Shown here: positions 7,957-28,341 of the stretch, piece by piece
How the letters are laid out: each line of letters begins with the position of its first letter
Numbering within the stretch: the first letter of the stretch is position 1
NCBI RefSeq assembly: GCF_900105125.1
Contig: NZ_LT629750.1
Location: 1,798,001-1,862,000, forward strand
Direction: 5' to 3'
DNA: 64,000 nucleotides
Origin: Bradyrhizobium canariense
GTDB lineage: Bacteria; Pseudomonadota; Alphaproteobacteria; Rhizobiales; Xanthobacteraceae
Notes under the pieces: model-generated
What the model saw: the letters and a program-made list of their open reading frames with translations, nothing else
Databases searched by the model: none
What the model was told of the DNA's origin: nothing
Position numbers and translations under genes: made by a program

Positions 7957-7997
7957 TCATTCAATCGTCCCCGGCGCTTTCGACGTCAAGTCATTGA
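7957..7997 (-). repeat. guaA 3'-end remnant E
   Basis: Read on the minus strand in the guaA frame it gives NDLTSKAPGTIE followed by a stop, against [14 protein letters not shown] in the intact protein; the Trp codon TGG has become TGA. About 40 bp are recognisable. It is the copy furthest from guaA and would be the oldest junction if the segments stacked from guaA outwards. Confidence 0.7.
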
Positions 7998-8306
7998 AGC
8001 GCTTTCCGGCGCCGTTTTTCTCCTCCTTCGTCTCGAAGCCCTGCCGGAGATCAGTGTCAGCCAGGGCGCCAAATGGAAGGCGCTCATCAGCAGGTACATC
8101 GGGACCATCCCGCTCAGCGGTGACGCATCATCCACCGCCACGCAGAGCATGTCGCGCGACCCGTCACCAAAAACACCCGTCAGCAGCGCCATGATGGCGA
8201 AGCTTGGTGCCGCCGCAAGACCTAACCATTTAGCTATGCCGAGCGCGGCCGCCTCTTCATTACGGCTCGCACCGCCGGGCGAGTTGGCGTGACAGGCGTC
8301 GGTCAT
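7986..8306 (-). CDS. Small membrane protein downstream of DUF899
   Basis: Protein of 106 residues with two hydrophobic stretches, WLGLAAAPSFAIMALLTGVFG (about 28-48) and PLSGMVPMYLLMSAFHLAPW (about 64-83), then a very basic tail (SRRRRRK). The start at 8306 overlaps the stop of the DUF899 gene as ATGA, so the two are translationally coupled and probably work together. The last codons lie inside guaA remnant E, so the natural C-terminus may have been cut off and replaced when the segment joined. No family recognised. Confidence 0.65.
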   Translation of the reverse strand: MTDACHANSPGGASRNEEAAALGIAKWLGLAAAPSFAIMALLTGVFGDGSRDMLCVAVDDASPLSGMVPMYLLMSAFHLAPWLTLISGRASRRRRRKTAPESASMT

Positions 8307-9097
8307 GCCTTCGCGCCGGCGTCGCGATTCCGGAAGGCGGCCTCTCCGGCGTCCGACACCTCGACCCACTTCTGGTCGGGCGAGGCCTCGGCGGCATAAT
8401 TGTTGTGCCAGTTCCACCACTTGTAGGGCGGACTCTGGGGGTAGCCCTCCGGCGAGTCTTCCCACGTCTCCTGGCGGCCGAGCGGCGTCGCATCGAGGTA
8501 GCTCCAGATGGTCCCCATCGCCTCGTCGCCGCGGCTATTGATGAAGTAGGTGCGAAATATGCGATCGCCGTCGTGGATGAACACGTTGTGGCCGTGCCAT
8601 TCAGCCACGCCGAAGTCGGCATCGAAGCTGTCGATGATGGTGTACCATGGCATCTTCCAGCCCATCCGCGCCTTCAGGCGCGCGATGTCCGCCTGTGGTG
8701 CACGCGAGGCGTACGCGAGTGTCGTGTCGCGGGCATTAAGATGGGCGAGGTGGGCGACCTGATCGGCCCCAAGGGAGCAGCCGCGGCAGGCATGTTCGGG
8801 CCAACCGAACACCCCGGGCTCAAAGAAGGCGCGGTAGATAATCAGTTGACGCCGGCCTTCGAACAGGTCGAGCAGGCTCACCATGCCCGTCGGCCCCGCG
8901 AACGCATACGCCTGCTCCACGGCCATCCACGGCATCCGCCGGCGTTCGGCGGCCAGCGCGTCATGGGCCCGCATCTGGGCCTTCTCCTTCACGAGCAGCT
9001 GCTGGCGCGCAGCCTCCCACGCTTGCGGTGAAACGATCGGTGGCCTGTGCATGGCGGGCTGTCCGTCTTTGCGGTCGTTCTCAGGTGATTTAGTCAT
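8303..9097 (-). CDS. DUF899 family thioredoxin-like protein
   Basis: Protein of 264 residues of the DUF899 family, which has a predicted thioredoxin-like fold. Conserved parts include PPIVSPQAWEAARQQLLVKEKA near the start, LLDLFEGRRQLIIYRAFFEP, a CRGCS cysteine pair and GWKMPWYTIIDSFDADFGV. The C-terminus ends in the Trp-rich PYKWWNWHNNY. The start at 9097 has GGAGG upstream and fits the family length; the open frame continues to 9571 but overlaps the divergent regulator. It may be a redox or oxidative-stress protein; function is unproven. It is coupled to the membrane protein downstream. Confidence 0.85.
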   Translation of the reverse strand: MTKSPENDRKDGQPAMHRPPIVSPQAWEAARQQLLVKEKAQMRAHDALAAERRRMPWMAVEQAYAFAGPTGMVSLLDLFEGRRQLIIYRAFFEPGVFGWPEHACRGCSLGADQVAHLAHLNARDTTLAYASRAPQADIARLKARMGWKMPWYTIIDSFDADFGVAEWHGHNVFIHDGDRIFRTYFINSRGDEAMGTIWSYLDATPLGRQETWEDSPEGYPQSPPYKWWNWHNNYAAEASPDQKWVEVSDAGEAAFRNRDAGAKA

Positions 9098-9241
9098 GGT
9101 CGTTGCAACCTCCGAATTGGGCGAGCTGCTCGGCTTTCGGGCTGAAGCACGACTCCGTCGCCGCCGATCGCTCATGTTGTGATGAGCTAGCTTGACACCG
9201 GGACTTGGGATGGTGGGAGTTACAAGTATGACGGGATTTCG

Positions 9242-10462
9242 ATGGACTCTCTGATCACGGCCGCGGCACGCGCACTCGCGGCAGGTGATCCCCTCGGTGC
9301 CCTGAACCGGGTCGCCTTGCGCGATGACGCGCCTGCGCTCGCGCTTCGAGGCCTCGCGATGGCGCAACTCGGCGATCTCGTTCGAGCGAAGGCGCTCGTG
9401 CGACGTGCGGCGCGCGCCTTCGGTGCAAAAGAGGCTGTAGCCCGCGCGCGGTGCGTCGTCGCCGAAGCCGAGATCGCGCTGGTCTCGCGCGACCTGGGCT
9501 GGCCCGCGAAGGCGCTCGACGCGGCGCGGGCCACGCTTGAAGCGGATGGCGACCGGGTCAACGCCGCGCATGCGCGGTATCTCGAAGTCCGCCGCCTGCT
9601 CCTGATCGGGCGCCTTGACGAGGCCGAACGCAAGCTCGCCGAACTCGACCCCTCGCCCTTCCCCCCCGCGTCAAGAGCCGCCCACGAATTGGTGGTTGCG
9701 GGGATCGCGATGCGACGCCTCCGGGCAAAGGCAGCGCACGCGGCACTCGCCCGGGCCGGGCGCGCCGCGCGTCTGGCTGGTATCTCCGCGCTGACGGCAG
9801 AGGTCGAAACCGCGTCTCTCGCGCTCAACGCGCCGGCGGCGCGCCTGATTACGAGCGGCAAGGAGCGCCTCCTCCTGCTGAAGGAGGTCGAGGCGCTGCA
9901 AGCGTCGAAAGCGCTCGTCGTTGACGCCTGCCGTCATGTCGTGCGGGACCCGCGCATGGCGATCTCGCTCGCAAGGCGTCCGGTGCTGTTCGCACTCGCA
10001 CGCACGCTGGGCGAGGCGTGGCCCAAAGACGTGTCGAGGGACGCGCTCGTTGCGCGGGCCTTCAGAGCCAAGCGCGCCGATGAATCGCATCGCGCCCGGT
10101 TGCGGGTGGAGGTTGGGCGGCTTCGCACCATGCTGAGGGGCATTGCTCGGGTGAGCGCAACAAAGCAAGGTTTTGCGCTGACGCCGCGCCGCGCCCGCGA
10201 GGTCGTCGTGCTGGCGCGGCCGACCGACGAGCCGCATGCGGCGGTGCTCGCCTTCCTGGCTGACGGAGAGTCATGGTCGAGCTCGGCCCTGGCGCTGGCG
10301 CTCGGCGCCAGCCAGCGCACCGTGCAGAGGGCACTCGACCAGCTTGCGGCGGCAGCTAAGGTGCAGTCGTTTGGTCGCGGGCGCGCGCGTCGCTGGATGA
10401 CCCCGCCCGTGCCGGGATTCACGACGACCTTGTTACTCCCCGATCCCGTGCCGGGGGATTAG
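9242..10462 (+). CDS. Helical-repeat winged-helix transcriptional regulator
   Basis: Protein of 406 residues, Ala/Arg rich. Residues 1 to about 220 are amphipathic helices in TPR-like pairs. A middle segment (RARLRVEVGRLRTMLRG, then TKQGFALTP) resembles the winged helix of SARP/OmpR-type regulators. The C-terminus (SSSALALALGASQRTVQRALDQL, then a basic RGRARRW) looks like a second helix-turn-helix. It is divergent from the DUF899 gene, with 144 bp between starts, and followed by a beta-propeller gene, so it probably regulates one or both. The family name is uncertain. Confidence 0.7.
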   Translation: MDSLITAAARALAAGDPLGALNRVALRDDAPALALRGLAMAQLGDLVRAKALVRRAARAFGAKEAVARARCVVAEAEIALVSRDLGWPAKALDAARATLEADGDRVNAAHARYLEVRRLLLIGRLDEAERKLAELDPSPFPPASRAAHELVVAGIAMRRLRAKAAHAALARAGRAARLAGISALTAEVETASLALNAPAARLITSGKERLLLLKEVEALQASKALVVDACRHVVRDPRMAISLARRPVLFALARTLGEAWPKDVSRDALVARAFRAKRADESHRARLRVEVGRLRTMLRGIARVSATKQGFALTPRRAREVVVLARPTDEPHAAVLAFLADGESWSSSALALALGASQRTVQRALDQLAAAAKVQSFGRGRARRWMTPPVPGFTTTLLLPDPVPGD

Positions 10463-10553: not shown

Positions 10554-10569
10554 ACACCAGGATGGAATC

Positions 10570-11244: not shown

Positions 11245-11278
11245 CCGAAGCGACCTGCGCGGCTGTCGACATTCAGCG

Positions 11279-12499
11279 TCACGCCGGCACCGGCTCGGGC
11301 TGGGCTTCACCCTTGGGAAACGGCCTGAACGTCATTGCCATCAGGAACGCGCCAAGCCCGACCGCCCAGGAGCCGATATAAAGCCACGCGTAGCTGGCGA
11401 AGGCGTCGTAGATCAAACCGCCGGCGATCGGCCCTGTGGCCATGCCGAGGCTGCCGGCCATAGCCGTTCCGCCGATCACGGTGCCCATCATCCGCAGTGG
11501 AAAATTCTCGCGCGCCAGCACCGAATAGAGCGGCATGGTGCCGGCGTAGATGAAGCCGAACAGCGCCGCCACGGCGTAGAACGCGGCCAACTCGCGCACG
11601 AAGACGTAAGCAAGCGCACCGAACGCCTGAGCGAGCAACCCCGAGACCAGCACGCGCTTGGCGCCAAAACGGTCGCCGAGCAGGCCGAACGCGATACGCC
11701 CGCCCATCCCCGCCAGTCCCTCGACGCTGTAGATCGTGACGGCTGCGATCATCGGGATCCCGCAGGTGACCGCATAGCTCACGGTGTGGATGATCGGACC
11801 CGAATGCGTGGCGCAACAAAAGAAATTGGTCGCGAGCAGGATGATGAATTGCGGCGAGCGCAGCGCTTGCGCCAGCGACATCGCCGATTGCGGCTGTCCG
11901 TCGCCGGATGCAACGGCATGTTCGCTTTCAAGCGCCGGCGCGCGGCGCACCAGTAGCGAGACCGGGATCATGACGGCTGCGACCACGACAGCCACGATTT
12001 GCATCGAGGTCCGCCAGTCATGGTTTGAGATGAGCCATGCGGCCAGCGGCGACATAGTCATCGGCGCCATCCCCATGCCTGCCGAAACCAGCGAGACCGC
12101 CAGGCTGCGATGCGTATCGAACCAGCCGGTGACGCAAGCCATCATCGGCGCAAAGATCGCAGCGATCGAGCCGCCGACCATCAGTCCGAACATGATCTGA
12201 AACGAGAGCAGCGACGACGCCTGGCTGGCCAGCGCGAGGCTCGCCGGCAGCACGATCGACCCGGTCAGCACCACCGGCAGCGGCCCGAACCGATCGGACA
12301 AGGTGCCCCACATCATGCTGGTGAACGCCATGGCGAGAAAGCCAATCGTCATGGCACTGGACACGCCGGTCACCGACCATCCGGTAGCCCGCGCGATCGG
12401 TTGCAGAAACACCGGCAGCGAGAACATGCCGCCAATGGCGACACAGCCCAACAGGCCGCCGGCCGCGACGATCACCCAGCGATAGCGAGAATTGGTCAT
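11279..12499 (-). CDS. MFS transporter
   Basis: Major facilitator of 406 residues with about twelve membrane segments. The loop between segments 2 and 3 carries GTLSDRFGPLPVVLTG, and its repeat in the second half is IAFGLLGDRFGAKRVLV, the MFS signature. The overall pattern (SVTGVSSAMTIGFL, MACVTGWFDTHRSLAVSL) resembles the oxalate/formate-antiporter and monocarboxylate-type group, suggesting an organic anion. Start 12499 has GGGAGACCAGGA before it; the frame opens earlier at 12562. The gene upstream (12624) is on the same strand but 124 bp away. Confidence 0.82.
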   Translation of the reverse strand: MTNSRYRWVIVAAGGLLGCVAIGGMFSLPVFLQPIARATGWSVTGVSSAMTIGFLAMAFTSMMWGTLSDRFGPLPVVLTGSIVLPASLALASQASSLLSFQIMFGLMVGGSIAAIFAPMMACVTGWFDTHRSLAVSLVSAGMGMAPMTMSPLAAWLISNHDWRTSMQIVAVVVAAVMIPVSLLVRRAPALESEHAVASGDGQPQSAMSLAQALRSPQFIILLATNFFCCATHSGPIIHTVSYAVTCGIPMIAAVTIYSVEGLAGMGGRIAFGLLGDRFGAKRVLVSGLLAQAFGALAYVFVRELAAFYAVAALFGFIYAGTMPLYSVLARENFPLRMMGTVIGGTAMAGSLGMATGPIAGGLIYDAFASYAWLYIGSWAVGLGAFLMAMTFRPFPKGEAQPEPVPA

Positions 12500-12623
12500 T
12501 CCTGGTCTCCCATGCAGCTTGTCTCTGGGTGGAAGACGAATGGGAGGAGCTGAACCCGACATAAATATAGACGGGCGGGCAAATTTTTTCGACCTCTGCC
12601 GACCGTCTCAAGCCCAAGCCGGG

Positions 12624-13275: not shown

Positions 13276-14229
13276 ATGAAGCAGAACTTCACAGTCAGGC
13301 AAGGCGCGCTCGACGGCGTGGAGGCGTTCCTGAGTGTTGCCGAGCACCGCAGTTTTCGCAAAGCGGCGGCCCAACTCGGGGTGACGCCCTCGGCCATGAG
13401 CCAGGCGATACGCACGCTCGAGGCGCGCGTCGGCGCGGCGCTGTTCATCCGCACTACGCGCAGTGTCGGCCTGACCGAAGCCGGTGACCGCTTTCTGTCG
13501 CGCGCCAAGCCCGCCTTCGAGGAGCTCGTCGCCGCAAGCGAGGTCGCGCGTGACCTCGGACAGCGGCCGGCCGGGCTGTTGCGCCTCGCGGTGCCGCGCG
13601 CGGTGGTGCCGATCGTGCTGGAGCCGCTGATCGCATCGTTCTGCGCTGATTATCCCGAGGTCGAGGTGGAGATCGCCGCAAGCGAAGAGATGGTCGACCT
13701 CGCGACCGCAGGGTTTGACGCCGGCGTCCGGATGGGCCAGTTCATCGCCGCCGACATGGTCGCGGTGCGGCTGACGCCGCCGTTTCGCTTCATCATCGTC
13801 GGTAGCCCCGCCTACCTCGCCCGCTGCGGCCGGCCCGAACGCCCGGACGATTTGCGCCACCATGCATGCTTGCGATTGCGACGATCCAACGGCGCGATTG
13901 CGCTATGGTCGCTCAACGACAGCAACCGCGCCATCGAGATTGCGGTATCAGGCCCGCTCATCGCCAACGACTTTCCCACCATGCTCGGCGCAGCAGTCGA
14001 AGGCGTCGGCCTTGCGCAAGTGCCTGCGCCGATCGCCACCGGCCTGGTGAAGGCTGGAAAACTCGTGCAGGTACTGGAGCCGTTCGCCCCGATGGGGCCG
14101 GGTGTTTTTCTCTATTATCCCGGCCACCGGCAACTGATGCCGAAGCTGCGCGCCTTCATCGATCACGTGAAGGCGCGCTCAAACGCCGGCAACAAAGCCC
14201 GGACGCGACGATCACCCATCGTTAGCTAG
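13276..14229 (+). CDS. LysR-family transcriptional regulator
   Basis: Regulator of 317 residues: HTH domain at about 12-70 (VEAFLSVAEHRSFRKAAAQLGV, TPSAMSQAIRTLEARVG, FIRTTRSVGLTEAG) and an effector domain ending in PLIANDFPTMLGAAVEGVG. It belongs to the CrgA/PecT-like subgroup, whose members often regulate a divergent neighbour. Here that is the small membrane protein gene at 12624 and perhaps the MFS after it. Confidence 0.85.
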   Translation: MKQNFTVRQGALDGVEAFLSVAEHRSFRKAAAQLGVTPSAMSQAIRTLEARVGAALFIRTTRSVGLTEAGDRFLSRAKPAFEELVAASEVARDLGQRPAGLLRLAVPRAVVPIVLEPLIASFCADYPEVEVEIAASEEMVDLATAGFDAGVRMGQFIAADMVAVRLTPPFRFIIVGSPAYLARCGRPERPDDLRHHACLRLRRSNGAIALWSLNDSNRAIEIAVSGPLIANDFPTMLGAAVEGVGLAQVPAPIATGLVKAGKLVQVLEPFAPMGPGVFLYYPGHRQLMPKLRAFIDHVKARSNAGNKARTRRSPIVS

Positions 14230-14264
14230 AATGGGTCATTTCAGTCTCCAATACGACAGAGATC

Positions 14265-14762
14265 ATGCCCAGCCGCACCATTATCCGTTACCCCGACCCT
14301 CGGCTTGCACTCCCGGCGCAGCCCGTGACCGTGTTTGACGCTGCGCTGCGCGACCTGGCGAGCGACCTGCTGGAGACCATGCACGCCGCGCCGGGGATCG
14401 GGATCACCGCGCCGCATATCGGCATCTTCTTGCGGGTCGTGGTGCTCGACCTCGACCCGATCGATGGTGCGCGGACCTACGTCAATCCGGAGATCATCTG
14501 GGCATCGCCCGAGACCATCCTGCATCTGGAAGGCAGCGTTTCGATGCCCGGTGTCAACGACGAGATAGAGCGTCATGCCCGCGTCCGGATCAGCTACCAC
14601 GACGTCGACGGCAACCGGCAGACCGAGGAATCGGCGGGTCTGCGCGCCGTCTGCCACCAGCATGAGATCGATCAACTCAACGGCCTGTTCTGGATTCAAA
14701 GGCTATCGCGTCTCAAGCGCGAGCGGCTGATCAAGCGATTTGAGAAGGTGTCGCGGAGGTGA
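14265..14762 (+). CDS. Peptide deformylase-like protein without metal ligands
   Basis: Protein of 165 residues aligned over its whole length with peptide deformylase, the Fe/Zn enzyme that removes N-formyl groups from new proteins. The three signature motifs are all changed. The first reads GIGITAPH (44-51), with His for the conserved Gln. The second is EGSVS (89-93), with Ser91 in place of the metal-ligand Cys. The third is HEIDQ (133-137), with Gln137 replacing the second metal-binding His. Glu134 is kept. Two of three metal ligands are therefore missing and deformylase activity is unlikely. The fold looks intact and not decayed. It starts 35 bases after the LysR gene. Confidence 0.8.
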   Translation: MPSRTIIRYPDPRLALPAQPVTVFDAALRDLASDLLETMHAAPGIGITAPHIGIFLRVVVLDLDPIDGARTYVNPEIIWASPETILHLEGSVSMPGVNDEIERHARVRISYHDVDGNRQTEESAGLRAVCHQHEIDQLNGLFWIQRLSRLKRERLIKRFEKVSRR

Positions 14763-15176
14763 GATAGATTTGGCGAAACACGCTCCGCTATTCCGCCCTA
14801 CGGCCTGCATGCTGGCTTGGAAGCCGGTGGCACGAGACAGAGCACTCCATTCAGGGGCTCTTGTAACAAGAAGCTATGGCAGCACAGCCGCGCAGAACGC
14901 CTGACCAAATTCGGTCAACACCACAGCGCTTAAATCCCCTGGTAGACTCAAGGTTTCCCTTGAAGGTCCATAGTCACCCCATCGAGCGTGGCCACCTGGC
15001 TCGTATGTCTCGAACCCCACTAGACTCGGAAATACGAGGCCCAAGCTAAATAATATGCTCATCGATACGTCTGCATTTCTCGGCGCGTCAACACTAGGCC
15101 CGTAAGAAACGCTTCCACCGCCTTGATACCATTTATCCTTATCCAACTTTTGCCACTCGCGAAAAATGGCCTCTAG

Positions 15177-16022
15177 GTGGTGTGGACTCTAAGGATTCCC
15201 TTTTAGGAGCAAATCAGATTCAAGGCTTCTTTTTGGGAGGCGGCCTTGGGTGTGATGGATCGGTTGGTTTTGAGCGATGCGGCTTGGGAGCGGATGGCGC
15301 CTCTGATTATAGGTCGGCCTGACCAGAAAGGCTCCACCGGGCGCGACAACCGGATGTTCGTGGAAGGTGTGCTGTGGATCGTGCGGACGGGCTCTCCCTG
15401 GCGTGATCTTCCGGAAGCGTTCGGGGATTGGAACAGCGTGTTCCGGCGCTTCAGTCGATGGAGCATCAAGGGTGTTTGGTGGCGGATCTTCGAGGCGATG
15501 TCCGACGACCCGGATTTCGAATATCTGATCGTCGATTCCACCGTCGTCCGGGCGCATCAGCACGCTGCCGGGGCGAAAAAAGGGGGTCTGAAGATCAGGC
15601 GCTTGGCCGCTCGCGCGGCGGCCTGAGCACCAAGATACATCTGGCCGTTCGCGGCCTGGGATGTCCGGTGCGCTTCACGCTTACCGCAGGTCAGAAGGGC
15701 GATGCACCGCAAGCCGCCGCATTGATCGAGGGATTGCCCGCCGAGATCGTTATGGCCGATACAGCCTATGACGCCGATCATTTGCGCGAAGCCATCGCCG
15801 CCAAGGGAGCGCTCGCCGTCATCCCCAACAACCCGTCACGCGCGCTCAAATATCCGCTCGACAAACATCTCTATGCCCAGCGCCATCTTGTCGAATGCTG
15901 CTTCTCCAAGCTCAAGCAATTCCGCCGCGTCGCCACCCGCTTCGAAAAGACCGCTCGAAATTACCTTGCCGTCATCACTCTCGCAGCCATCATCTTATGG
16001 ATGCGATAAGTGTCCACACCAC
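15177..16022 (+). mobile_element. IS5-family insertion sequence, 846 bp
   Basis: The ends form an 11-bp perfect inverted repeat, GTGGTGTGGAC at 15177-15187 and its complement ending at 16022. Both sides carry the direct repeat CTAG (15173-15176 and 16023-16026), a 4-bp target duplication. It encodes a two-frame DDE transposase and sits inside the Abi-alpha-like gene. The intact ends and target duplication suggest a fairly recent insertion. Confidence 0.9.
15255..16009 (+). CDS. IS5-family transposase, two frames joined by frameshift
   Basis: The first frame (15255-15626) carries the N-terminal domain (LSDAAWERMAPLI, DNRMFVEGVLWIVRTG) and the first catalytic Asp in LIVDSTVVRAHQHAAG. The second frame, ending at 16009, holds the other catalytic residues: Asp in MADTAYDADHLRE and Glu in HLVECCFSKLKQFRR. 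The frames meet at an A6G5 run (15576-15586), a slippery site of the kind IS5-group elements use for programmed frameshifting. It is probably functional as a fusion protein. Confidence 0.85.
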
Positions 16023-16660
16023 CTAGCGCTCGCGCATCGTCCGCGCTCAATTCCGCAAGTGTCGAGACATATTTCCGATGCACCTGATCGCCATCAGTAT
16101 CAAGAGCCGTACCAAGCAAATTGGCCCAAAGCGTATGCAGATCGTCTTCGTATTCCATTGTTGCATGCTCGATCAACGGAAGCATGATCTTGGGTGGCGG
16201 TAATCGGGTTTGTGTAATTCCCTTGTCCCTAAGTCGCTTTTCCACTTTTTGCACAAGCAATTCGAGACGTTCCCAATCCAAAATCGCGGCTTCAATTCGC
16301 TTCGTCATCTCCTTATCTGACCAACGACGCGCTACCGCATGCTCAATGCCATTCCCGAAAATACGATCTAGCCAACCGCCGGCACCGCGGCCCACATCGA
16401 CGACTTTCCCTGTCGCCTTGGCTACCTCTTGAACCGCTTTCGCGCCTTCTTTAAACGCGTCGGTTTCGTCGCCCATTGCTTACTCCCTGCCATTACTGAG
16501 CCTACCTCTGAATAGTGGGTAGAACCAATGGTTTGGTAGCTGCTGCGCTGCACCTTGTGATAGGCAGATGGCTTAAACAGAGGTCGGAGGGCAACACCTA
16601 AACGTCGCAGCTAACAACAAGCCGCGCGTTCGGGGCCGGTAATGATGACGGGGGGCAGCT

Positions 16661-17738: not shown

Positions 17739-17805
17739 GCCGTAACGTGTATCGTATCACAGATCGCCGAACAACACAGCGTTGATACCAGGCATCGCCC
17801 CGCGG

Positions 17806-19163: not shown

Positions 19164-20132
19164 CTAATCGCAGCCGCTCACGCAGGCACCGCTGGCGTCG
19201 AATGCCAGGGTTTTTCCACTCAGGGGAACATGCACGGGCGCTTTGGTGGCCTTCACGAACATTTCCGTCTTGGTGCCGGGAATGATCTTGCCATCCTTGG
19301 TCGCGGCCTCGTTGGCATGGGAGGCGATGACTTCCCGTGGTTCGATCAGGCTATCGATCGCAAAGGCCGCCTCCTTCGGGCCAGCCGTATACACATCGCC
19401 AATATTCATGACGGCCAGCTTTGGCTTGTAATAATCGTGAATGATGGTCTTTTGATCGGCGATGAGGCCAGTGTCTCCCGACAGGTACGCGACCAGGCCG
19501 TTCGAGAAGGTCAGGACATAGCCGTTGGGCGGACCAAGATACGCCGTCAAACCGTTTTCCTTCAACGCCTGCGCATACGGCCCCTCGAGGAATTCCGGAT
19601 CAAGTCCGTTGGTGTGCGCCGCCGGTACGGTTGCGAAGGTCACCCCGCCCACCTTGCGCGATGCGCCGAAGCGCAGCAGGAGAACCTGTGAGGCCTCGCC
19701 GCCCGCGGCAGCGACCTTCTTCGAGAAAAAAGAGCCCATTTCGCCACCGACCAGAAACTTGGCCTTTTTCGCGACCACGATGTTCACGGTGTTTGATCTC
19801 GGCGAAACATTCACGGAGATGTCGGGAGCGGCGCAGGTGCCGGCATTGGCGGCAGGCTGGATGGCTTCGCCGAGATGATCGGCATGGGCGTGGCTGAGCA
19901 GCACGACATCGATCTTGCCCAGCCGCGGGTCGTCCGGCCCGCGCACCGTGCGCCCGGCATCATAGAGAATGCGCGTTCCATCGGGATCTTCGAAGACCAT
20001 GGCGCGATCGAACGCGCAAAATTCACCGTCATGACTGCCAAGCGGGGTGATGCGGACGACATCGGCCGCCTGGGCCGTCGCGGCCAGAATATTTGCGGTC
20101 AGAAGGCCGATAGCCAGCGATACGAGTTTCAT
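19164..20132 (-). CDS. Secreted metallo-beta-lactamase-fold hydrolase
   Basis: Protein of 322 residues with an N-terminal signal peptide (LAIGLLTANILAATAQA, cleavage before ADV). The zinc-binding motif SHAHADHLG and the later YLSGDTGLIAD and SHANEAA segments fit the MBL superfamily. The GSHDGEFCAFDRAMVFEDPDGTRILYDAGRT opening resembles UlaG/YcbL-type MBL proteins. Substrate unknown; periplasmic. It is the only gene besides the binding protein between remnants D and C. Confidence 0.82.
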   Translation of the reverse strand: MKLVSLAIGLLTANILAATAQAADVVRITPLGSHDGEFCAFDRAMVFEDPDGTRILYDAGRTVRGPDDPRLGKIDVVLLSHAHADHLGEAIQPAANAGTCAAPDISVNVSPRSNTVNIVVAKKAKFLVGGEMGSFFSKKVAAAGGEASQVLLLRFGASRKVGGVTFATVPAAHTNGLDPEFLEGPYAQALKENGLTAYLGPPNGYVLTFSNGLVAYLSGDTGLIADQKTIIHDYYKPKLAVMNIGDVYTAGPKEAAFAIDSLIEPREVIASHANEAATKDGKIIPGTKTEMFVKATKAPVHVPLSGKTLAFDASGACVSGCD

Positions 20133-20184: not shown

Positions 20185-20244
20185 CTACTCCCACTCGATG
20201 GTCCCCGACGACTTTGACGTCAAGTGAAAGACCACGCCGAAGAC
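20185..20244 (-). repeat. guaA 3'-end remnant C
   Basis: On the minus strand, in the guaA frame, it reads LTSKSSGTIEWE and ends in TAG, against [12 protein letters not shown] and TGA in the intact gene. About 55-60 bp align at roughly 80% by eye. The different stop codon shows that it derives from a distinct guaA allele. Confidence 0.78.
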
Positions 20245-20327: not shown

Positions 20328-21350
20328 ATGAAGAAGATCGGCTTTCTATCGTTCGGGCACTGGACGCCTTCGTCCCAATCGCAGGCGCGGTCCGCGTCCG
20401 ACGCGCTGTTGCAGTCCATCGAGCTGGCTGTCGCCGCCGAACAGCTAGGCGCGGACGGGGCGTATTTCCGCGTGCATCACTTTGCCCGCCAGCTCGGCGC
20501 GCCGTTCCCCCTGCTGGCGGCGGTCGGCGCGAAGACCAGTCGCATCGAGATCGGCACGGCTGTCATCGATATGCGGTACGAGAACCCGCTGTACATGGCG
20601 GAGGATGCCGGCGCGGCCGACCTCATCGCCGGCGGGCGTCTGCAGCTCGGTATCAGCCGCGGATCACCCGAGCAGGTGATCGACGGCTGGCGCTATTTCG
20701 GCTACGCGCCGCCGGAGGGCGGGACCGGCTCCGACATGGCGAGACGCCACGCCGAAGTGTTTCTGGATGTGCTGCGCGGGCAAGGTTTTGCGCAGCCCAA
20801 CCCGCGGCCGATGTTCCCGAACCCGCCCGGCCTGCTGCGCATCGAGCCGCACTCGGAAGGTCTGCGTGACCGCATTTGGTGGGGCGCCGCCTCGAACGCC
20901 ACCGCGGTCTGGGCCGCCAAACTGGGGATGAACCTGCAGAGCTCCACGCTGAAGGATGACGAGAACGGAGAGCCGTTCCACGTCCAGCAAGCGAGCCAGA
21001 TCCGGGCGTTCCGTGAGGCGTGGAAGGAAGCCGGTCACGCGCGGGAGCCGCGGACATCGGTCAGTCGCAGCATGTTCGCGCTGGTCGACGACCGCGACCG
21101 CGCCTATTTCGGCCACAGCGGCCAGGATGAGGATCAGGTCGGCTTCATCGACGAAAAAACTCGGGCGATCTTCGGCCGCAGCTATGCCGCCGAGCCGGAT
21201 GTCCTCATCGAGCAACTGAGGAAGGACGAAGCAATCGCGGAGGCTGACACGCTGCTGCTGACCGTCCCCAACCAGCTTGGCGTTGACTATAACGCCCACG
21301 TCATCGAGGCGATCCTGACGCATGTCGCCCCCGCGCTTGGTTGGCGCTGA
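20328..21350 (+). CDS. LLM-class flavin-dependent oxidoreductase
   Basis: Bacterial luciferase-like monooxygenase of 340 residues. It begins MKKIGFLSFGHW and has AVAAEQLGADGAYFRVHHF, IEIGTAVIDMRYENPLYMAEDAGAADLI and LQLGISRGSPEQV, which line the flavin pocket of this TIM-barrel family. It probably uses FMNH2 from a partner reductase. Substrate unknown. ATG 20328 is chosen because the family starts here, although the ribosome-binding site is weak. The frame extends upstream to 19875 through guaA remnant C and the MBL gene, which is not credible coding. Confidence 0.85.
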   Translation: MKKIGFLSFGHWTPSSQSQARSASDALLQSIELAVAAEQLGADGAYFRVHHFARQLGAPFPLLAAVGAKTSRIEIGTAVIDMRYENPLYMAEDAGAADLIAGGRLQLGISRGSPEQVIDGWRYFGYAPPEGGTGSDMARRHAEVFLDVLRGQGFAQPNPRPMFPNPPGLLRIEPHSEGLRDRIWWGAASNATAVWAAKLGMNLQSSTLKDDENGEPFHVQQASQIRAFREAWKEAGHAREPRTSVSRSMFALVDDRDRAYFGHSGQDEDQVGFIDEKTRAIFGRSYAAEPDVLIEQLRKDEAIAEADTLLLTVPNQLGVDYNAHVIEAILTHVAPALGWR

Positions 21351-21491
21351 CGCTCGTCACCGCGCAGATGCGGATTGCGGAATCTCGCAATCCTCCGCGT
21401 CCTGAAGCGAAAGACCGCGCGAGGGAGTGAAGGCGGCTGGCAACTCGGCGCGCACTCGGCCTCCCCTTGCATGCCGCCAATCCGTGCGCTA

Positions 21492-21517
21492 TATACTGAA
21501 CTACATGGTTCAGTATA
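21492..21517 (+). promoter_or_regulatory. ArsR-type operator overlapping the start codon
   Basis: A perfect 10-bp inverted repeat, TATACTGAAC (21492-21501) and GTTCAGTATA (21508-21517), is separated by TACATG and contains the ATG of the regulator gene. The left arm supplies a -10-like TATACT ending 7 bases before the ATG, so the mRNA is probably leaderless or nearly so. A weak TTGCAT (21467-21472) could be the -35. Binding of the dimeric regulator here would block its own transcription. Confidence 0.7.
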
Positions 21518-21870
21518 CGACAGCCCGCCTCGATGCCTCGTTCGCCGCGCTCTCGGACGCTACCCGACGCGGCGTTCTGGAGCTGCTCGGACGCGCAGAC
21601 TCTTCGATCACGGACCTTGCCGAGAAGTTCCACATGACCCTCACGGGCATGAAGAAGCACGTCGGCGTCTTAGAGCAGGCCGGGCTCGTGACCACGGAGA
21701 AGGTCGGGCGCGTGAGGACCTGCAAGCTCGGCCCGCGCCGACTGGCGGAAGAGACGGCATGGATCGAGGAGTACCGCCAGCTCTGGGCCTCACGCTTCGA
21801 CGAGTTGGACAAGGTTGTCGAGGAACTGAAGCGGAAGGAAAAAGTCGATGGACGCAAAAGGAGAGAGTGA
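21505..21870 (+). CDS. ArsR/SmtB-type transcriptional regulator
   Basis: Winged-helix regulator of 121 residues: DASFAALSDATRRGVLELLGR, ITDLAEKFHMTLTGMKKHVGVLEQAGLVTTEKVGRVRTCKL. No metal-binding cysteine cluster is present, so it belongs to the SdpR-like group that pairs with SRPBCC proteins. The ATG at 21505 lies within the palindromic operator; the upstream extension to 21427 would pass through the promoter. It overlaps the SRPBCC gene by 23 bases, so the two are co-translated. Confidence 0.88.
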   Translation: MVQYTTARLDASFAALSDATRRGVLELLGRADSSITDLAEKFHMTLTGMKKHVGVLEQAGLVTTEKVGRVRTCKLGPRRLAEETAWIEEYRQLWASRFDELDKVVEELKRKEKVDGRKRRE

Positions 21871-22375
21871 TCCCACCTCCGGGAAGAACCGCACGACGGT
21901 GGAACGGAAGTCCGAGCGTGAGCTAGTCGTCACGCGGACCTTCAACGCCCCGGCGCGCATCGTATTCGAGGCCTGGACCAAGCCCGAGCTGCTCAAGCGG
22001 TGGTGGGCACCGAAGTCATTTGGAGTGTCCTTCCTTTCCTGCGAGGCGGATGTTCGTGCAGGGGGCACGTACCGTTTCGTGTTCAGCCACGCTGCCTCAG
22101 AGCAGCCTATGGAGTTTCTCGGTAGGTACATCGAAGTGACGCCGCACTCCCGCCTCGTCTGGACGAATGACGAAGGCGGTGAAGGTGGGGCCGTTACCAC
22201 GGTGACCTTCGAAGAAAGAGGTGGCGAGACACTGGTCGTCATGCACGATCTCTATCCCTCGAGGGAAGCTCTCGACGGTGCTATCGCCTCCGGGAGTACG
22301 GGTGGGTTTAGCGAGACGTTCGAGCAATTGGACGAGCTTCTCGTCACCACGAGCACGAGCGTGGGACGGTCATGA
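21848..22375 (+). CDS. SRPBCC (AHSA1-type) domain protein
   Basis: Protein of 175 residues with an AHSA1/START-like lipid- or ligand-binding fold: ELVVTRTFNAPARIVFEAWTKPELLKRWWAPKSFG, then GGTYRFVF and TVTFEERGGETLVVMHD. These small proteins are very often encoded with an ArsR regulator, as here; ligand and reaction are usually unknown. The first 25 residues are polar and probably disordered. Its stop overlaps the next short open frame as ATGA, but that frame is likely a transposase remnant. Confidence 0.85.
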   Translation: MDAKGESDPTSGKNRTTVERKSERELVVTRTFNAPARIVFEAWTKPELLKRWWAPKSFGVSFLSCEADVRAGGTYRFVFSHAASEQPMEFLGRYIEVTPHSRLVWTNDEGGEGGAVTTVTFEERGGETLVVMHDLYPSREALDGAIASGSTGGFSETFEQLDELLVTTSTSVGRS

Positions 22376-22715: not shown

Positions 22716-22734
22716 CCCCTCACTCCCACTCGAT
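22716..22734 (-). repeat. guaA 3'-end remnant B (19 bp)
   Basis: CCCCTCACTCCCACTCGAT is identical to 26742-26760 at the end of the intact guaA, covering the stop codon, the codons for IEWE and 4 bases beyond. Similarity falls off sharply on both sides. As the shortest and only exact copy it may mark the recombination core. Confidence 0.65.
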
Positions 22735-23107
22735 TGTTCTGAAGCATCATAACGCATTGATCCATCGAGGAAGATCTTTCCGCTGATGACCAAGAACCGT
22801 ATCCCGGATCCGTCAAAAATTCTCGCTCTTGAATTCAAAGGAGAATTTCGACGATCCGCGATTTGCTCGGTTTCAAAGACTATCGATATCGGTTGGTCTA
22901 TTTTCCTCGGAGTTCTCCGCAAAAGCGGCGTCTCCAGCCTGCCAAAAAGACCGTCAGCGATGGTGAAGTCCGTCGCCGTCAGTAGTGTGGCCCTCGCGCC
23001 GGTTGCGATACGGCGCAACATTCGCGGATTGAACGACGCCGCTTCAAGCGATCGCAGCTCGGCTTCCGACCGGATTACGGCAAGCGTTGCCGGCAACCTG
23101 CCGCGCG
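22735..23107. other. Region without a confident gene
   Basis: Between remnant B and the LysR stop there is an open frame on the minus strand (22695-23303), but it overlaps the LysR 3' end and shows no recognisable domain. A motif such as IRFLVISGKIFLDG hints at an amidohydrolase-like end; this is too weak to call. Probably decayed DNA. Confidence 0.4.
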
Positions 23108-24004
23108 TCAATCGCGCGGTATCGACAGCCCCGCGAGAAGCGGAGCGTACCCGGCGAGCCTGCGGGATACGAACTCCGTGAAGAGCCGCACGCGCTTGGT
23201 CTTGCGCGTCTCGCCCTGTGTGAGGAGCCAGAGCGTTCCGTACATGTGCAGGTCGGTACCCGGCACCCTCACCAGCAGGGGGTCGGCATCGCCGACGAAG
23301 CACGGCAGTGTCGTGATCCCGAGCCCTTGCCGTACAGCAACGATCTGCGCCTCGGCGTCCGTGGTCCTGAATGGAACCCCCGTGGGGCGAACCTCACCCT
23401 CGCTGGCCCAGTGCGGGATTCCATGAATGCTGATGACGATCCACCGGATGGGATCAGGCGCGCCCGCACGCCACGCGGCCAGTCGATCGCGGGACATGTA
23501 GACGCCTCCGAACAGCTCAGGTCCCTTCAGGCCGTGAAGATTGAGCGGCAGGGTTTTGCGGTCGTAGACGACGCGGATCGCGACGTCGGCCTCCCGGTTG
23601 GTCAGATTTGCCAGCTCGCCGGACGACAAGATTTCCATCTCGATGTCCGGATGCAGACCCGCGAAATCGGCGAAGTCCGGCATCAGCAGGTGTGTCGCGA
23701 GGGGCGGCGCCAGCGTCACCCGCAGAAGCCCGCGCACGCTCTGGTCGCGCCCGAAGACGCGCGTCTCCAGCAGGTGCGACGACGCTTCCATCTGGTCCGC
23801 GAACTCGAGGACCTCCTCGCCCGCAGCCGTCAGGCGGTAGCCCGAAGGCAGCTTTTCGAACATCTGGACCCCGAGGCGTTCCTCGAGCTGGGCGATGCGT
23901 CGCAGCACGGTCGCGTGGTTCACACCGAGGCGCTCGGCGGCAGTCCGCACCGAGCCTCCGCGCGCGACGGCAAGAAAGTAGCGAACGTCATCCCAGTCGA
24001 TCAT
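23108..24004 (-). CDS. LysR-family transcriptional regulator
   Basis: Regulator of 298 residues with HTH domain at the N-terminus (MIDWDDVRYFLAVARGGSVRTAAERLGVNHATVLRR, then LEERLGVQMFEKLPSGYRLTAAGE) and an effector domain. The start at 24004 fits the family; the frame is open to 24562 but that would overlap the divergent SDR gene. It faces the SDR at 24254 across 249 bp, the usual arrangement of a LysR regulator and its target. Confidence 0.87.
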   Translation of the reverse strand: MIDWDDVRYFLAVARGGSVRTAAERLGVNHATVLRRIAQLEERLGVQMFEKLPSGYRLTAAGEEVLEFADQMEASSHLLETRVFGRDQSVRGLLRVTLAPPLATHLLMPDFADFAGLHPDIEMEILSSGELANLTNREADVAIRVVYDRKTLPLNLHGLKGPELFGGVYMSRDRLAAWRAGAPDPIRWIVISIHGIPHWASEGEVRPTGVPFRTTDAEAQIVAVRQGLGITTLPCFVGDADPLLVRVPGTDLHMYGTLWLLTQGETRKTKRVRLFTEFVSRRLAGYAPLLAGLSIPRD

Positions 24005-24253
24005 GGTGCAATCCCGCACCGCGCGGTGCGCCTTCCAAAGCCGGTATCTAACACATCGAACAGCCGTACGGGCGGTCAGCACGGCCCAATTCCGAACGGC
24101 GGACACCGATCGTCGCGGCTGACGCCAGTCGTCCAGCCGGATCGATTTCGCACCACCGATGTGCGCGCTTCCGCACTCAACGCCTGACACCGGCAGACCC
24201 ATCTCGAGGTTCTCGGGGACAGATGCTGTCCCGACACCACGATTGGAGAAGTT

Positions 24254-24988
24254 ATGGGAAAGCTTGAAAGTAAGGTTGCCGTCGTCACGGGTGGATCGAG
24301 CGGCATGGCGCTGGCGAGCGCCAAGCGGTTCGTTGAAGAAGGCGCCTATGTGTTCATCACGGGCCGGAGGCAGGCGGCGCTCGACGAGGCCGTCAAGCTG
24401 ATTGGCCGGAACGTGACCGGCGTGCGCGGCGACGCGGCCAATCTCGACGACCTCGACCGTCTGTTCGACACGGTCAAGCGGGAAAAGGGCAGGATCGACG
24501 TCCTGTACGCGAGCGCCGGCACGGGCGAAGCCGTACCCTTGGGCGAGATTACCGAGCAGCATTTCGATGCGACCTTCGGCCTGAATACGCGCGGCACGCT
24601 GTTTACGGTGCAGAAGGCGTTGCCGCTGTTCAACGATGGCGGATCGATCTTCATGACCGGGTCAGTTGCTTCGGTGAAAGGTTTTCCTGGTTACGGCGTG
24701 TATGCGGCGAGCAAGGCGGCGTTGCGCTCATTCGCACGCACCTGGCTCAACGAACTGAAGGGCAGGAATATCCGGGTGAACGTGCTGAGCCCGGGGCCGA
24801 TCGCCACACCGATGCAGGACCAGGTTCTCACCGAGGAGGCGAAGCGGATGTTCGAATCCCTGATCCCGCGGGGAACGATGGGTCGTCCTGAGGAAATTGC
24901 GGCGGTCGCGCTGTTTCTGGCTTCAGACGATTCGAGCTTCGTGAATGGCGTGGAGTTGTCTGTCGACGGCGGCTTCTCGGCCATCTGA
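24254..24988 (+). CDS. SDR-family oxidoreductase
   Basis: Classical short-chain dehydrogenase of 244 residues: cofactor loop VVTGGSSGMALASAKRF (Met-Ala in place of the more common Ile-Gly), ITGRRQ suggesting NADP(H), SAGTGEA in place of NNAG, catalytic Ser in FMTGSVAS and YAASK. The end DGGFSAI is typical. It is followed 41 bp later by an NADP-binding reductase gene and divergent from the LysR regulator; the pair probably forms a two-gene operon for an unknown reduction. Confidence 0.85.
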   Translation: MGKLESKVAVVTGGSSGMALASAKRFVEEGAYVFITGRRQAALDEAVKLIGRNVTGVRGDAANLDDLDRLFDTVKREKGRIDVLYASAGTGEAVPLGEITEQHFDATFGLNTRGTLFTVQKALPLFNDGGSIFMTGSVASVKGFPGYGVYAASKAALRSFARTWLNELKGRNIRVNVLSPGPIATPMQDQVLTEEAKRMFESLIPRGTMGRPEEIAAVALFLASDDSSFVNGVELSVDGGFSAI

Positions 24989-25029: not shown

Positions 25030-25629
25030 ATGAGCTACGCGATTGTAGGATTCGGTAAGATAGGCCAGGCCCTCGCCCACGCCTTCGCCCGTAAAAACAT
25101 CGACGTGACCGTCGCGAGTCGCCGGCCGCCCGAGGCGTTGGCGCCGCAGGCTCGGGCGATTGGACCCACGGTCGTCGCCAGGTCGCTGCGGGATGCACTC
25201 GAGGCCGACACCATCATCCTGGCGGTCCCGTTCGGCGAGCATCGCGAGATTGCGAAGGCCCTGCCGAGCTGGAAAGGCAAGACGATCATCGACGCGATGA
25301 ACGCGTTTCCTGTCCCTGAAGAGCTGGACGGCCTCCCGTCCTCCGCCTTCGTTGCAAAGTCGTTCACCGGCGCCAGGCTCGTGAAAGGCTTCAATCACCT
25401 GGGTGCGGCCACCCTGGCTGCCGATCCGACCGTCGAGGGCGGTCACCGGGTCGTCTTTCTGTCTGGTGACGATGAGGACGCGATCGCTCCCGTGGCGGCC
25501 CTGGCCAAACAACTCGGGTTCGCACCCGTCAAGCTGGGAAAGCTCAACGAGGGTGGCGCGCTGGTGCACGCGCGCGGCCGCACTTGGGGCCAGCTCATCT
25601 TCCAGGATTTGTTCAAGAAGGAGCCGTAA
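25030..25629 (+). CDS. F420/NADP-reductase-like (NAD-binding) protein
   Basis: Protein of 199 residues with an N-terminal Rossmann fold: SYAIVGFGKIGQALAHAFARKNIDVTVASRRPPEAL, then ILAVPFGEHREIAKALPSWKGKTIIDAMN. It matches the F420-dependent NADP oxidoreductase / Fno-like family (PF03807 type), often annotated as NADPH-dependent reductase; F420 use is not implied in this organism. GGAG lies 8 bases upstream of the ATG. Co-oriented with the SDR. Confidence 0.82.
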   Translation: MSYAIVGFGKIGQALAHAFARKNIDVTVASRRPPEALAPQARAIGPTVVARSLRDALEADTIILAVPFGEHREIAKALPSWKGKTIIDAMNAFPVPEELDGLPSSAFVAKSFTGARLVKGFNHLGAATLAADPTVEGGHRVVFLSGDDEDAIAPVAALAKQLGFAPVKLGKLNEGGALVHARGRTWGQLIFQDLFKKEP

Positions 25630-25841
25630 TCGATTTACCACCGTGTGATCGACGCCGAGAACCGGTCGCGCGCGCTAACTTCTTTAAGCCGCGCGCGACC
25701 GAATATTTGAAGGCCACAAAGTCGCGAAGGTTGGGGTGGGCCTGACGGCGTATGGGCGCCGTTCGAAGAGCGGGGAAACGCCCGACAGAGCGGCAGATCT
25801 GCGGGTCGCTTAGAATCTATCGACTGCTATCGATGGCCTAG

Positions 25842-26689
25842 GACCGATCGACATTCATTGCATCCAGATCATGGCGGCTGCGAGATGGATGAAGCCGGTA
25901 AAGTTGGCGGTTCGTCTGTCATAACGGGTAGCGAAGCGGCGGAAGTGTTTGAGGCGGTAGAAGCAGCGCTCGATGCGGTTGCGCTGTTTGTAGGCGTCGG
26001 CGTCGTGCGGAATGACGATCCTACGGGTGCGGTTTGACGGGATCACCGCCGTTGCGCCGATCCCGGCGATGATCGCGCGCAGGGCGTTGCTGTCATAGGC
26101 TTTGTCGGCGAGCACCGCATCGCCGCTTTGGCCGTCGAGCAGCGCCGGCGCCTGGGTGATGTCGCCAACCTGTCCGGCCGTGACGATGAAGCGGAGCGGA
26201 CGGCCGAGCGCATCAGCCAGCATATGGATCTTGGTGGTCAGTCCGCCTCGGGAGCGCCCCAGCGCCTGATCTTTGGCCCCCCTTTTCCGCTTGCGGCCTG
26301 CTGGTGGGCGCGAACAATGGTGCTATCGATCATCAAATACTGGTTGTCGCGATCGGCGCTCAGCGCGGCGAACACCCGCTCCCAGACGCCGGCATGGCAC
26401 CAGCGGCTGAAGCGCCGGTGCACGGTCTTCCACTTGCCGTACCGCTCCGGCAGGTCGCACCAGTGCGCGCCCGACCGTAACACCCACAAACATCCGTTCA
26501 CGAACAGGCGGTTATCCGCAGCTGACCGTCCCGGGTCGCCAGCCTTGCCCGGCAGTAATGGTGAAATCTTCGCCCATTGCGTCTCATTCAACTCGTATCG
26601 CTTCGCCGCCATCATCCGCTCCGTGTCGAATCACGGAGCTCTATGAATCAGCGATCAAACCGCTTGGGAATCCTCAATGTCGATCGGCC
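25842..26689 (-). mobile_element. IS5-family insertion sequence, 848 bp
   Basis: Terminal inverted repeats G(A/G)CCGATCGACATT at 25842-25855 and 26676-26689, flanked by CTAG direct repeats (25838-25841 and 26690-26693). It is the same size class and has the same target duplication as the IS at 15177 but different ends and transposase. It lies 56 bp from the guaA stop codon, at the place where an island integrase gene would be expected. Confidence 0.88.
25855..26615 (-). CDS. IS5-family transposase, two frames joined by frameshift
   Basis: Frame A (26615 to 26238) begins MMAAKRYELNETQWAKISPLL and contains the first catalytic Asp in LMIDSTIVRAHQQAASGK. Frame B, ending at 25855, has Asp in LADKAYDSNALR and Glu in RNRIERCFYRLKHFRR. 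On the coding strand the frames join at an A4G6 run (26277-26286 on the plus strand), consistent with programmed frameshifting. The elements of an active transposase are all present. Confidence 0.85.
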
Positions 26690-26745
26690 CTAGGATTCGC
26701 TCGAGTGTCCTCTGCTATCCGATACTACTCCACGGTACTCCCCCC

Positions 26746-28341
26746 TCACTCCCACTCGATCGTGCCCGGCGGCTTTGACGTCACGTCATAGACCACGCGG
26801 TTGACGCCCTTGACCTCGTTGATGATGCGGGTCGCGGTCTCGCCCAGAAATTTCATGTCAAAGGAATAGAAGTCGGCGGTCATGCCGTCGGTCGAGGTCA
26901 CCGCGCGCAGGCCCACGACGTATTCGTAAGTCCGGCCGTCGCCCATCACGCCGACGGTCTTGACTGGCAGCAGCACCGCAAACGCCTGCCAGATCTGATC
27001 GTAGAGGCCGGCCTTGCGGATCTGGTCGATATAAACCGCGTCGGCGTTGCGCAGGATGTCGAGCTTCTCTTTTGTGATCTCGCCGGGGCAGCGGATCGCG
27101 AGGCCCGGTCCGGGGAAAGGATGGCGGCCGACGAAGATTTCGGGCAGGCCAAGTTCGCGCCCCAGCACGCGTACTTCATCCTTGAACAATTCGCGCAAGG
27201 GCTCGACCAGCTTCATGTTCATGCGCGCGGGCAAACCGCCGACATTGTGGTGCGACTTGATCGTCACCGATGGGCCGCCAGTGAACGACACGCTCTCGAT
27301 CACGTCAGGATAGAGCGTGCCCTGCGCCAGAAAATCAGCCCCGCCGATTTTCTTGGCCTCGGCATCGAACACGTCGATGAACAGGCGCCCGATGGTCTTG
27401 CGCTTCACTTCGGGATCGGTGACCCCTTCGAGTTCGCCCAAAAACACTTTCGAGGCATCCACATGCACCAGCGGGATATTGTAGTGATGCCGGAACAGGT
27501 CGACCACGGTCTTGGCCTCGTCGAGCCGCAGCATGCCGTGGTCGACGAACACGCACGTCAACTGGTCGCCGATCGCCTCATGGATCAGCACCGCAGCGAC
27601 GGCAGAATCGACGCCGCCGGACAATCCGCAGATCACCTTGCCCGCGCCTACCTGAGCGCGGATCTTCTCGATCGCTTCCTCGCGGAACGCGCGCATGGTC
27701 CAGTCGCCGGTCAGGCCTGCGACCTTGCGAACGAAATTGCGGATCAGCTTTGCCCCGTCGGGCGTGTGCACCACTTCGGGGTGGAACATCAGCCCGTAAT
27801 ATTTTCGCTTCTCGTCCTGGATGACCGCGAACGGCGCGTTCGGCGACACGCCGGCCACGACAAAGCCCGGCGGCATTTTTGTAATTCGGTCGCCATGGCT
27901 CATCCAGACCGGATGGCGCTCGCCCATGCTCCAGGTGGAATCGAACAATAGGCTCGCGGATTTGACCTCGACATCGGCGCGGCCGAACTCACGGTGATGG
28001 CCGCCTTCGACGCTGCCGCCGAGCTGGGCCGCCATGGTCATCTGACCGTAGCAGATGCCGAGCACCGGTACGCCGGAATCGAAAATCGCCTGCGGCGCGC
28101 GCGGCGAGCCTTCCTCATGGACCGATTCCGGACCGCCGGAGAGGATCACCGCCTTCGGCTTCATCTCGTTGAAGGCTGCTTCCGCCTTCTGGAACGGCAC
28201 GATCTCGGAATAGACGCCCTCCTCGCGCACCCGTCGTGCGATCAGTTGCGTCACCTGACTGCCGAAATCGACAATCAGAATCTTGTCATGCGCCGAGGCC
28301 ACCGGGGGCGTCGACTGCTGGGCTTGCTGTGGGGCTGTCAT
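26746..28341 (-). CDS. guaA: GMP synthase (glutamine-hydrolysing)
   Basis: Converts XMP to GMP with glutamine and ATP, the last step of de novo GMP synthesis. 531 residues. The class I glutamine amidotransferase domain has Cys97 in GICYGQ and the His187/Glu189 pair in FHPEV. The ATP-pyrophosphatase domain has the P-loop SGGVDS (241-246). The C-terminal dimerisation domain ends [10 protein letters not shown]. The start at 28341 is chosen because the upstream in-frame extension (to 28434) is encoded by a dispersed repeat. Its 3' end is the target of the accretion region to the left, so the last codons may have been supplied by incoming elements. guaB lies 19 kb away. Confidence 0.97.

Follow-up and report, generated by a model that had tools for sequence, protein, structure and literature searches.

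In the soil bacterium Bradyrhizobium canariense, the 18.8 kb lying behind guaA is most probably a stack formed by repeated additive insertion at the 3' end of this gene. The region was studied in a 64,000-nt window, that is, the whole stretch of DNA analysed (GCF_900105125.1, NZ_LT629750.1, 1,798,001-1,862,000), and all coordinates are window-based. Four displaced copies of the guaA 3' end, termed fragments B, C, D and E, lie behind the intact gene. Each insertion would have brought a new guaA tail, or its last codons, together with cargo, pushing the prior tail and everything behind it outward. The youngest insert, of about 3 kb plus an insertion sequence (IS) that arrived later, would owe its integration to a P4-type tyrosine integrase that recombines within the final 15-16 bp of guaA, and what is left would be an integrase-less remnant of the cis-mobilizable element (CIME) kind. 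Fragments C, D and E, which are longer displaced tails, would mark further, probably older insertions in a deeper part that also appears rearranged. These insertions may have involved another integrase with a crossover point further upstream in guaA; alternatively, one end may have joined by homologous recombination in guaA and the other illegitimately.

Displaced copies of the guaA 3' end

The intact gene and its displaced ends are as follows; here and below, G followed by a number denotes a genome and L followed by a number a locus.

26746-28341, minus strand: intact guaA, whose last 15 bp (26746-26760) are the integration core; the longest frame is 26746-28434
22716-22737, minus strand: fragment B, the 15-bp core ATCGAGTGGGAGTGA (22720-22734) with flanking bases; putative right attachment site (attR) of the youngest unit
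20185-20237, minus strand: fragment C, a 53-bp guaA tail with the exact core at 20185-20199
17574-17741, minus strand: fragment D, a 168-bp guaA 3' end with 87.5% identity to the intact gene
7952-7997, minus strand: fragment E, about 45 bp at 78% identity, the most diverged; a counterpart fragment is found at the same place in G052

With guaA (26746-28434, minus strand) as the blastn query and the window as target, fragment D was aligned over 168 bp (E 2e-55) and fragment E over 46 bp (E 2e-4), both at the identities listed, and fragment C over 51 bp (20187-20237, 86%, E 5e-11). Fragment B matched the gene-only query weakly (18 bp, E 0.31), and was identical at 21 of 22 bp when the bases after the stop codon were added to the query. 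All four fragments lie on the guaA strand and end at the guaA stop or at most 2 bp short of it, giving the several displaced ends in the same orientation behind one target gene that characterize tandem accretion. A scan of the 7.84-Mb genome for the degenerate 15-mer ATYGARTGGGARTRR, representing the IEWE-stop tail, gave only three sites (guaA, B and C), each of them on the minus strand; the same pattern reversed, used as a control, gave one. Decayed versions of the tail are present in D and E. It is confirmed that the four guaA 3'-end copies are real and not due to chance, and the coordinates and common orientation reported for them in the first-pass annotation hold. A further match in this genome, to the bases 162-129 bp from the guaA end and 26.0 kb behind guaA, was supported by a single query and was taken as chance.

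Similar copies recur across the genus. The sequences downstream of guaA in 75 Bradyrhizobium genomes, with five further contigs containing fragments, comprise 1.54 Mb. In this set, a 27-bp guaA-tail profile with up to 5 mismatches gave 32 matches on the guaA strand vs 0 on the opposite strand; with 6 mismatches, the respective numbers were 6 and 2. When the last 400 bp of each genome's own guaA served as query, copies reaching the gene end were found in 16 of the 75 genomes (20 copies, all on the guaA strand), and matches of any kind numbered 24 in 19 genomes. Among control genes from the same regions, only 1 of 336 had an end-reaching copy and 6 of 336 had any match. Whole-genome searches with guaA were also conducted in sets of 98, 69 and 80 genomes (247 altogether), scoring as an extra tail any match that reached query position 1546 or beyond; G034 and G074, with partial guaA matches and no intact guaA, were not counted. 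An extra tail was present in at least 38 of the 247 genomes, a lower bound given that few candidates were scored per genome. In 31 of these 38 it was on the same contig as guaA, and in 30 of the 31 it was located downstream on the guaA strand. The guaA 3' end is thus a recurrent entry or docking site for new genes across Bradyrhizobium.

A dispersed palindromic repeat, TGGATGGCCGGGACAAGCCCGGCCATGACG, is located just upstream of guaA (28389-28425) and also at 60433-60521, 54702-54788 and 61645-61674.

The youngest unit and the guaA-linked integrases

The unit between guaA and fragment B contains the following features.

26695-26745, minus strand: left end of the unit, immediately behind the guaA stop; similar bases are found behind guaA in G024, G030, G052 and G090, and behind a displaced end in G026, G072 and G090
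25837-26694, no strand assigned: insertion sequence with 19-bp inverted repeats and DDE_Tnp_1
25030-25629, plus strand: F420-dependent NADP oxidoreductase-like gene
24254-24988, plus strand: short-chain dehydrogenase (SDR) gene
23108-24562, minus strand: frame with a LysR-type regulator, the domain starting at about residue 190
22735-22894, minus strand: arm beside B, related to the detached-core arms of G119 and G137 (integrase islands), G036 and G013, and weakly to that of G128

Identical direct repeats of the 15-bp core (26746-26760 and 22720-22734) bound this unit. G030 holds the same guaA-B unit at 93% identity, ending at the core and followed by a different flank. The start of the unit is found after guaA in five genomes, the window's included, and after a displaced end in three. 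The insertion sequence lies about 51 bp inside the unit and is missing from the aligned copies in G024 and G052. The arm beside B is strongly related to those of G030 (94% over 160 bp) and G090. It also gave short matches in register with the arms of the integrase islands in G119 (22 bp, E 6e-5) and G137 (41 bp, E 2e-4), and with those of G036 (E 1e-7) and G013 (E 2e-6), these E-values referring to a set of 12 arms. The match to G128 (8e-4) was off register; the G128 arm does match other island arms.

An integrase family in the genus is linked to guaA. In G079, an integrase with PF00589, Arm-DNA-bind_3 and Phage_int_M domains is encoded behind guaA. Relatives of this integrase (E <=1e-60) are present in 17 of 265 genus genomes, and the match starts 218-318 bp past guaA on the same strand in 16 of them, the 17th being at a contig edge. 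Among loci from named genomes, the query's own included, 39 of 45 integrases are preceded by a guaA C-terminus at a distance of 229-235 bp (265 bp in one case); the remaining six comprise three with less than 260 bp of upstream sequence and three with 3 kb upstream but no guaA. The bases after the stop are closely similar in Methylosinus, Erythrobacter and a Verrucomicrobia genome, the B. glycinis locus excepted. In Verrucomicrobia bacterium LP2A (L260), which belongs to another phylum, an integrase relative is located behind a guaA with a 62% identical C-terminus, and this locus suggests that the guaA-linked integrase may have a very wide host range.

A second exact core was found on the guaA contig in five of 16 integrase-bearing genomes. 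In four of these (G079, G119, G128 and G259) it shares the strand of guaA and lies 9.9 to 137.5 kb downstream; in G246 it is 350 kb away on the other side of guaA. The detached ends of the integrase islands examined, in G079, G119, G128 and G137, consist of the core alone in all four cases, the one in G137 being on a different contig from guaA. In three of the four (G119, G128 and G137) the detached core carries TAG and guaA now ends in TAA, a mismatch suggesting that the stop codon came with the element. Comparison of these genomes shows that the predicted islands integrate site-specifically in the last 15-16 bp of guaA.

The guaA stop codons alternate among TGA, TAG and TAA across the genus, and the stop codon of guaA may report the last-arrived element. 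In G093, a 123-kb stretch about 0.7 Mb from guaA has four exact guaA-tail cores on the opposite strand (contig C1, 4949100, 5017955, 5056330 and 5072093), which perhaps represent a multi-part or relocated guaA-type element.

The guaA-B unit has attachment sites on both sides and no tyrosine integrase; transfer genes were sought by Pfam on the main open reading frames. The best reading of fragment B is that of an attR belonging to a discrete unit now lacking an integrase, and the unit was very probably integrated site-specifically in the last 15-16 bp of guaA. Judged by sequence, B alone of the four displaced ends has the anatomy of an integrase attachment site.

Long tails and the deeper stack

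The guaA sequence in fragments C (53 bp), D (168 bp) and E (about 45 bp) exceeds that in the ends of the integrase islands examined. The rule that one integration leaves one displaced end, assumed in the first-pass annotation, may therefore not hold for these three ends, which are longer than what the integrase leaves.

Displaced ends in relatives were examined by comparing the sequence that follows each of them with 98 post-guaA sequences. Of 62 distinct displaced ends, short and long, 16 are followed by sequence that stands directly behind an intact guaA elsewhere, some of these matches being weak (67-77%). The sequence after a 102-bp tail in G186, itself 98% intact, corresponds to the post-guaA sequence of G039 at 95%. 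Similarly, the sequences after a 324-bp tail in G216 and a 139-bp tail in G086 correspond to the post-guaA sequences of G024 and G209 at 94% and 93% respectively. The post-guaA sequence of G039 is found after displaced ends in five genomes (G079, G014, G088, G186 and G010) at 91-95%, and G039 is thus read as empty at that site. These comparisons show that the long tails of relatives are, on sequence evidence, genuine displaced tails. Such pairs of empty and occupied sites offer an analogy for C, D and E, which are best explained by additive insertion at guaA, with tails that donors may have supplied. The proposal of repeated events at one site is well supported, because sequences following displaced ends are found directly behind intact guaA elsewhere, unit starts are shared and the integrases are linked to the site.

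End-reaching tails start 29 to 553 bp before the stop, and 50 of 71 fragments end within 7 bp of the guaA stop. The G162 tail, 68 bp at 98.5% identity, is a young short tail, so erosion alone does not explain the tail lengths. Five fragments suggested a fixed crossover at -324, which was rejected: their upstream arms are the same, and a single inherited event explains them best. Starts at -420 (twice), -247 and -139 adjoin a shared IS-like end and look like truncations. A CTTTGAAAAGTAGATCA-like sequence adjoins guaA fragments cut at differing points in G226, G110, G248 and G086, and looks like one insertion-sequence end that truncates displaced tails.

Some of the inserts associated with long tails are small. 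Fifteen short inserts of 1.0-3.5 kb in relatives, hand-picked and hence a selection rather than a census, contain one to a few main frames each; other inserts are much longer (30.8 kb in G014 and about 16 kb in G101). In G108, a lone HNH gene separates guaA from a 140-bp tail; other genomes have relatives of this gene directly behind guaA. Among the main genes of ten short inserts, one from each, Pfam identified no integrase and assigned a family in five. PADLOC matches were obtained for three of eight insert genes: an HNH nuclease, a KAP nucleoside triphosphatase (PDC-S49) and a DUF6602 / PD-DExK nuclease. A second traffic at guaA, consisting of integrase-less units of 1-4 kb, several of them defence-like, each bringing its own guaA tail and leaving a displaced tail of 30-550 bp, is a tentative and rather doubtful proposal. 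If true, it would create a countable, shuffled array behind one gene, resembling integron cassettes in effect, with the tail of a coding gene as the joint.

Homologous recombination with an illegitimate second end is favoured for most of the long tails, with a likelihood somewhat short of an even chance. A donor guaA tail with its flank would recombine within guaA, and the other end would join the recipient guaA illegitimately, allowing any tail length. This agrees with the wide range of tail lengths and the lack of a single fixed start, with the few frames of the 15 short inserts and the lack of integrases in those scanned, and with the recurrence of some insert genes behind guaA in other species. 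However, the starts cluster in the final third of guaA, a pattern not expected of free illegitimate joining, and lumps of starts near -88 and -65, which could be alignment effects, hint at preferred points. Tail-swap tests, which ask whether the present tail is foreign and the fragment original, also yielded no uniform outcome: of 31 fragments, only 5 had the genome's own guaA tail as best match, and only 5 were nearer to the genome's kin than the present tail was. Tail identity compared with that of the rest of guaA gave a correlation of 0.425 for the last 59 bp, which is unremarkable beside other windows (0.22-0.66).

It is unlikely that one guaA-specific integrase produced all four ends in plain islands that later lost their integrases. 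Such an integrase family and its core exist in the genus, B fits and C has the exact core; however, the detached ends of the islands in G079, G119, G128 and G137 are the core alone, in contrast to the lengths of C, D and E, and the 68- and 102-bp tails of relatives, 98% intact, cannot simply be old cores that eroded or were extended. A purely local origin, in which guaA was duplicated and decayed, transposons brought the cargo and no island integrated, is very improbable: insertion sequences do occur in the region and some fragments of relatives stop at a shared IS-like end, but empty-site matches, shared units starting at guaA or at the core end, the site-linked integrase family and fragments nearer to the guaA of other species than to their own (the own tail of G012 ranks 91st of 91) all argue against it.

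The cargo behind fragment B is as follows.

20349-22375, plus strand: segment B-C, with a luciferase-like monooxygenase (domain from about 20349) and an AHSA1 gene (21848-22375)
19164-20132, minus strand: metallo-beta-lactamase-fold gene, segment C-D
17806-18975, minus strand: periplasmic binding protein gene, segment C-D; near neighbour of the major facilitator superfamily (MFS) gene in eight other genomes
16661-17458, plus strand: Hypoth_ymh / PADLOC PD-Lambda-3_B candidate defence gene, right after D (270 bits)
15173-16026, no strand assigned: second insertion sequence, with 18-bp inverted repeats and DDE_Tnp_1
14265-14762, plus strand: peptide deformylase-like gene, common behind guaA in the genus
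13276-14229, plus strand: LysR-type regulator
11279-12562, minus strand: MFS transporter, common behind guaA in the genus
8303-9571, minus strand: DUF899 gene, adjoining E

The description of these segments as unrelated accessory genes is correct only in part: relatives of the deformylase gene of segment D-E are found behind guaA in 35 of 80 maps of up to 26 kb, and relatives of the MFS gene in 33 of 80. The binding-protein gene is at most 110 bp from the MFS gene in G069, G068, G004, G043 and G010, and 0.8-1.05 kb from it in G120, G245 and G076; in the other four of the 12 contexts (G084, G012, G195 and G196) no MFS match was found near it. In the window, the two genes are separated by 5.2 kb that includes D. 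The counterpart of E in G052 lies upstream of the same gene, and no fragment is visible at the E-adjoining gene in an alignment of eight other genomes. Since the fragment is common to another species, E is probably old, and its lower identity fits.

Several observations weigh against the proposed stack, as do the tail-swap results. The window contains no tyrosine integrase (PF00589), so that no P4-type integrase accompanies the youngest unit, and the guaA-type integrase has no close relative in this genome (best 34% identity, far away), serine recombinases not having been searched genome-wide. No guaA precedes three integrase relatives (L233, L262 and L265) among the 42 whose upstream sequence is long enough. 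In G248, the single exception among the 31 genomes with an extra tail on the guaA contig, the 3'-end fragments are 0.94 Mb from guaA on the other strand. The search for empty sites proposed with the first-pass annotation, successful for 16 of the 62 displaced ends, gave little for the window itself: the sequence after B matches the post-guaA sequence of G047 weakly (69% over 202 bp), and the sequences after C, D and E have no direct match behind guaA in any of the 98 post-guaA sequences. Fragment D sits between genes that are closely adjacent in 8 of 12 contexts, which plain stacking does not predict; this indicates that stacking was probably accompanied by rearrangement in the deeper part. 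The stack has no defined outer edge: the best relatives of the gene to the left of E are distant from guaA (for example by 2.4 Mb in G024).

The LysR-type regulator gene is the only control gene for which an end-reaching copy was found. A 42-bp direct repeat (88%, 12459-12500 and 14199-14240) places a copy of the end of this gene near the start of the MFS gene. A PIN-domain gene at 258-719 had no PADLOC match.

Comparison with known systems

In Escherichia coli, e14 and phage 21 integrate inside the coding gene icd, providing a replacement 3' end and leaving a displaced tail of about 165 bp. Unlike e14 and phage 21 at icd, the long guaA tails have no known recombinase. This class of tails presents a concrete puzzle, namely how genes without an integrase reach a fixed site.

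Both guaA islands and tandem accretion are known already; the comparisons that follow refer to excerpts of the sources cited. Genomic islands at the guaA 3' end with P4-type integrases and the core GAGTGGGA were reported by Song et al. (2012), as quoted in PMC7775301, and GIsul2, ATE-1 and the Brucella suis IncP island are listed at guaA in a table of PMC5704250. The guaA 3' end was thus rightly called an established target of island integrases. The Bradyrhizobium islands resemble these islands and ICERspD18B in their target, in the 8-bp core GAGTGGGA within the direct repeat and in the P4-type tyrosine integrase adjoining guaA. In contrast to the islands described in these excerpts, the youngest unit in the window has no integrase, and three longer guaA tails lie behind it.

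Tandem accretion of integrative and conjugative elements (ICEs), integrative and mobilizable elements (IMEs) and CIMEs is described in PMC5704250, citing work on ICESt1. There, a decayed element keeps its left and right attachment sites (attL and attR) and a new element enters the same site, as is proposed for guaA. Unlike the ICE, IME and CIME accretion outlined in that source, the guaA case involves longer tails of a coding gene and short integrase-less units besides islands, and extends genus-wide at guaA. In the tripartite ICEs of Mesorhizobium, one integrase, presumably IntG, uses guaA (PMC8627217; the IntG system in PMC5882170), so that guaA serves as a chromosomal site for a tyrosine integrase in that rhizobial genus as well. 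The window differs from the tripartite ICEs presented there in containing no integrase, partner regions and conjugation genes not having been sought genome-wide. Stacks at the Bradyrhizobium guaA, or the class of long ends, were not described in any of the literature matches listed, which were titles and abstracts from a search that mostly excluded subscription literature.

The core defence hotspots of Pseudomonas aeruginosa (PMC10250203) are similar in having a fixed place, a turnover of small defence-like genes and no obvious single mobiliser. Recombination via conserved flanks at such hotspots would, according to the same excerpt, leave no mobile-element scars. The guaA case, in contrast to this expectation, does have scars, because each displaced tail is one. 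Unlike events at the P. aeruginosa hotspots as portrayed there, insertions at guaA can be counted by these gene-tail scars, roughly ordered and traced between species.

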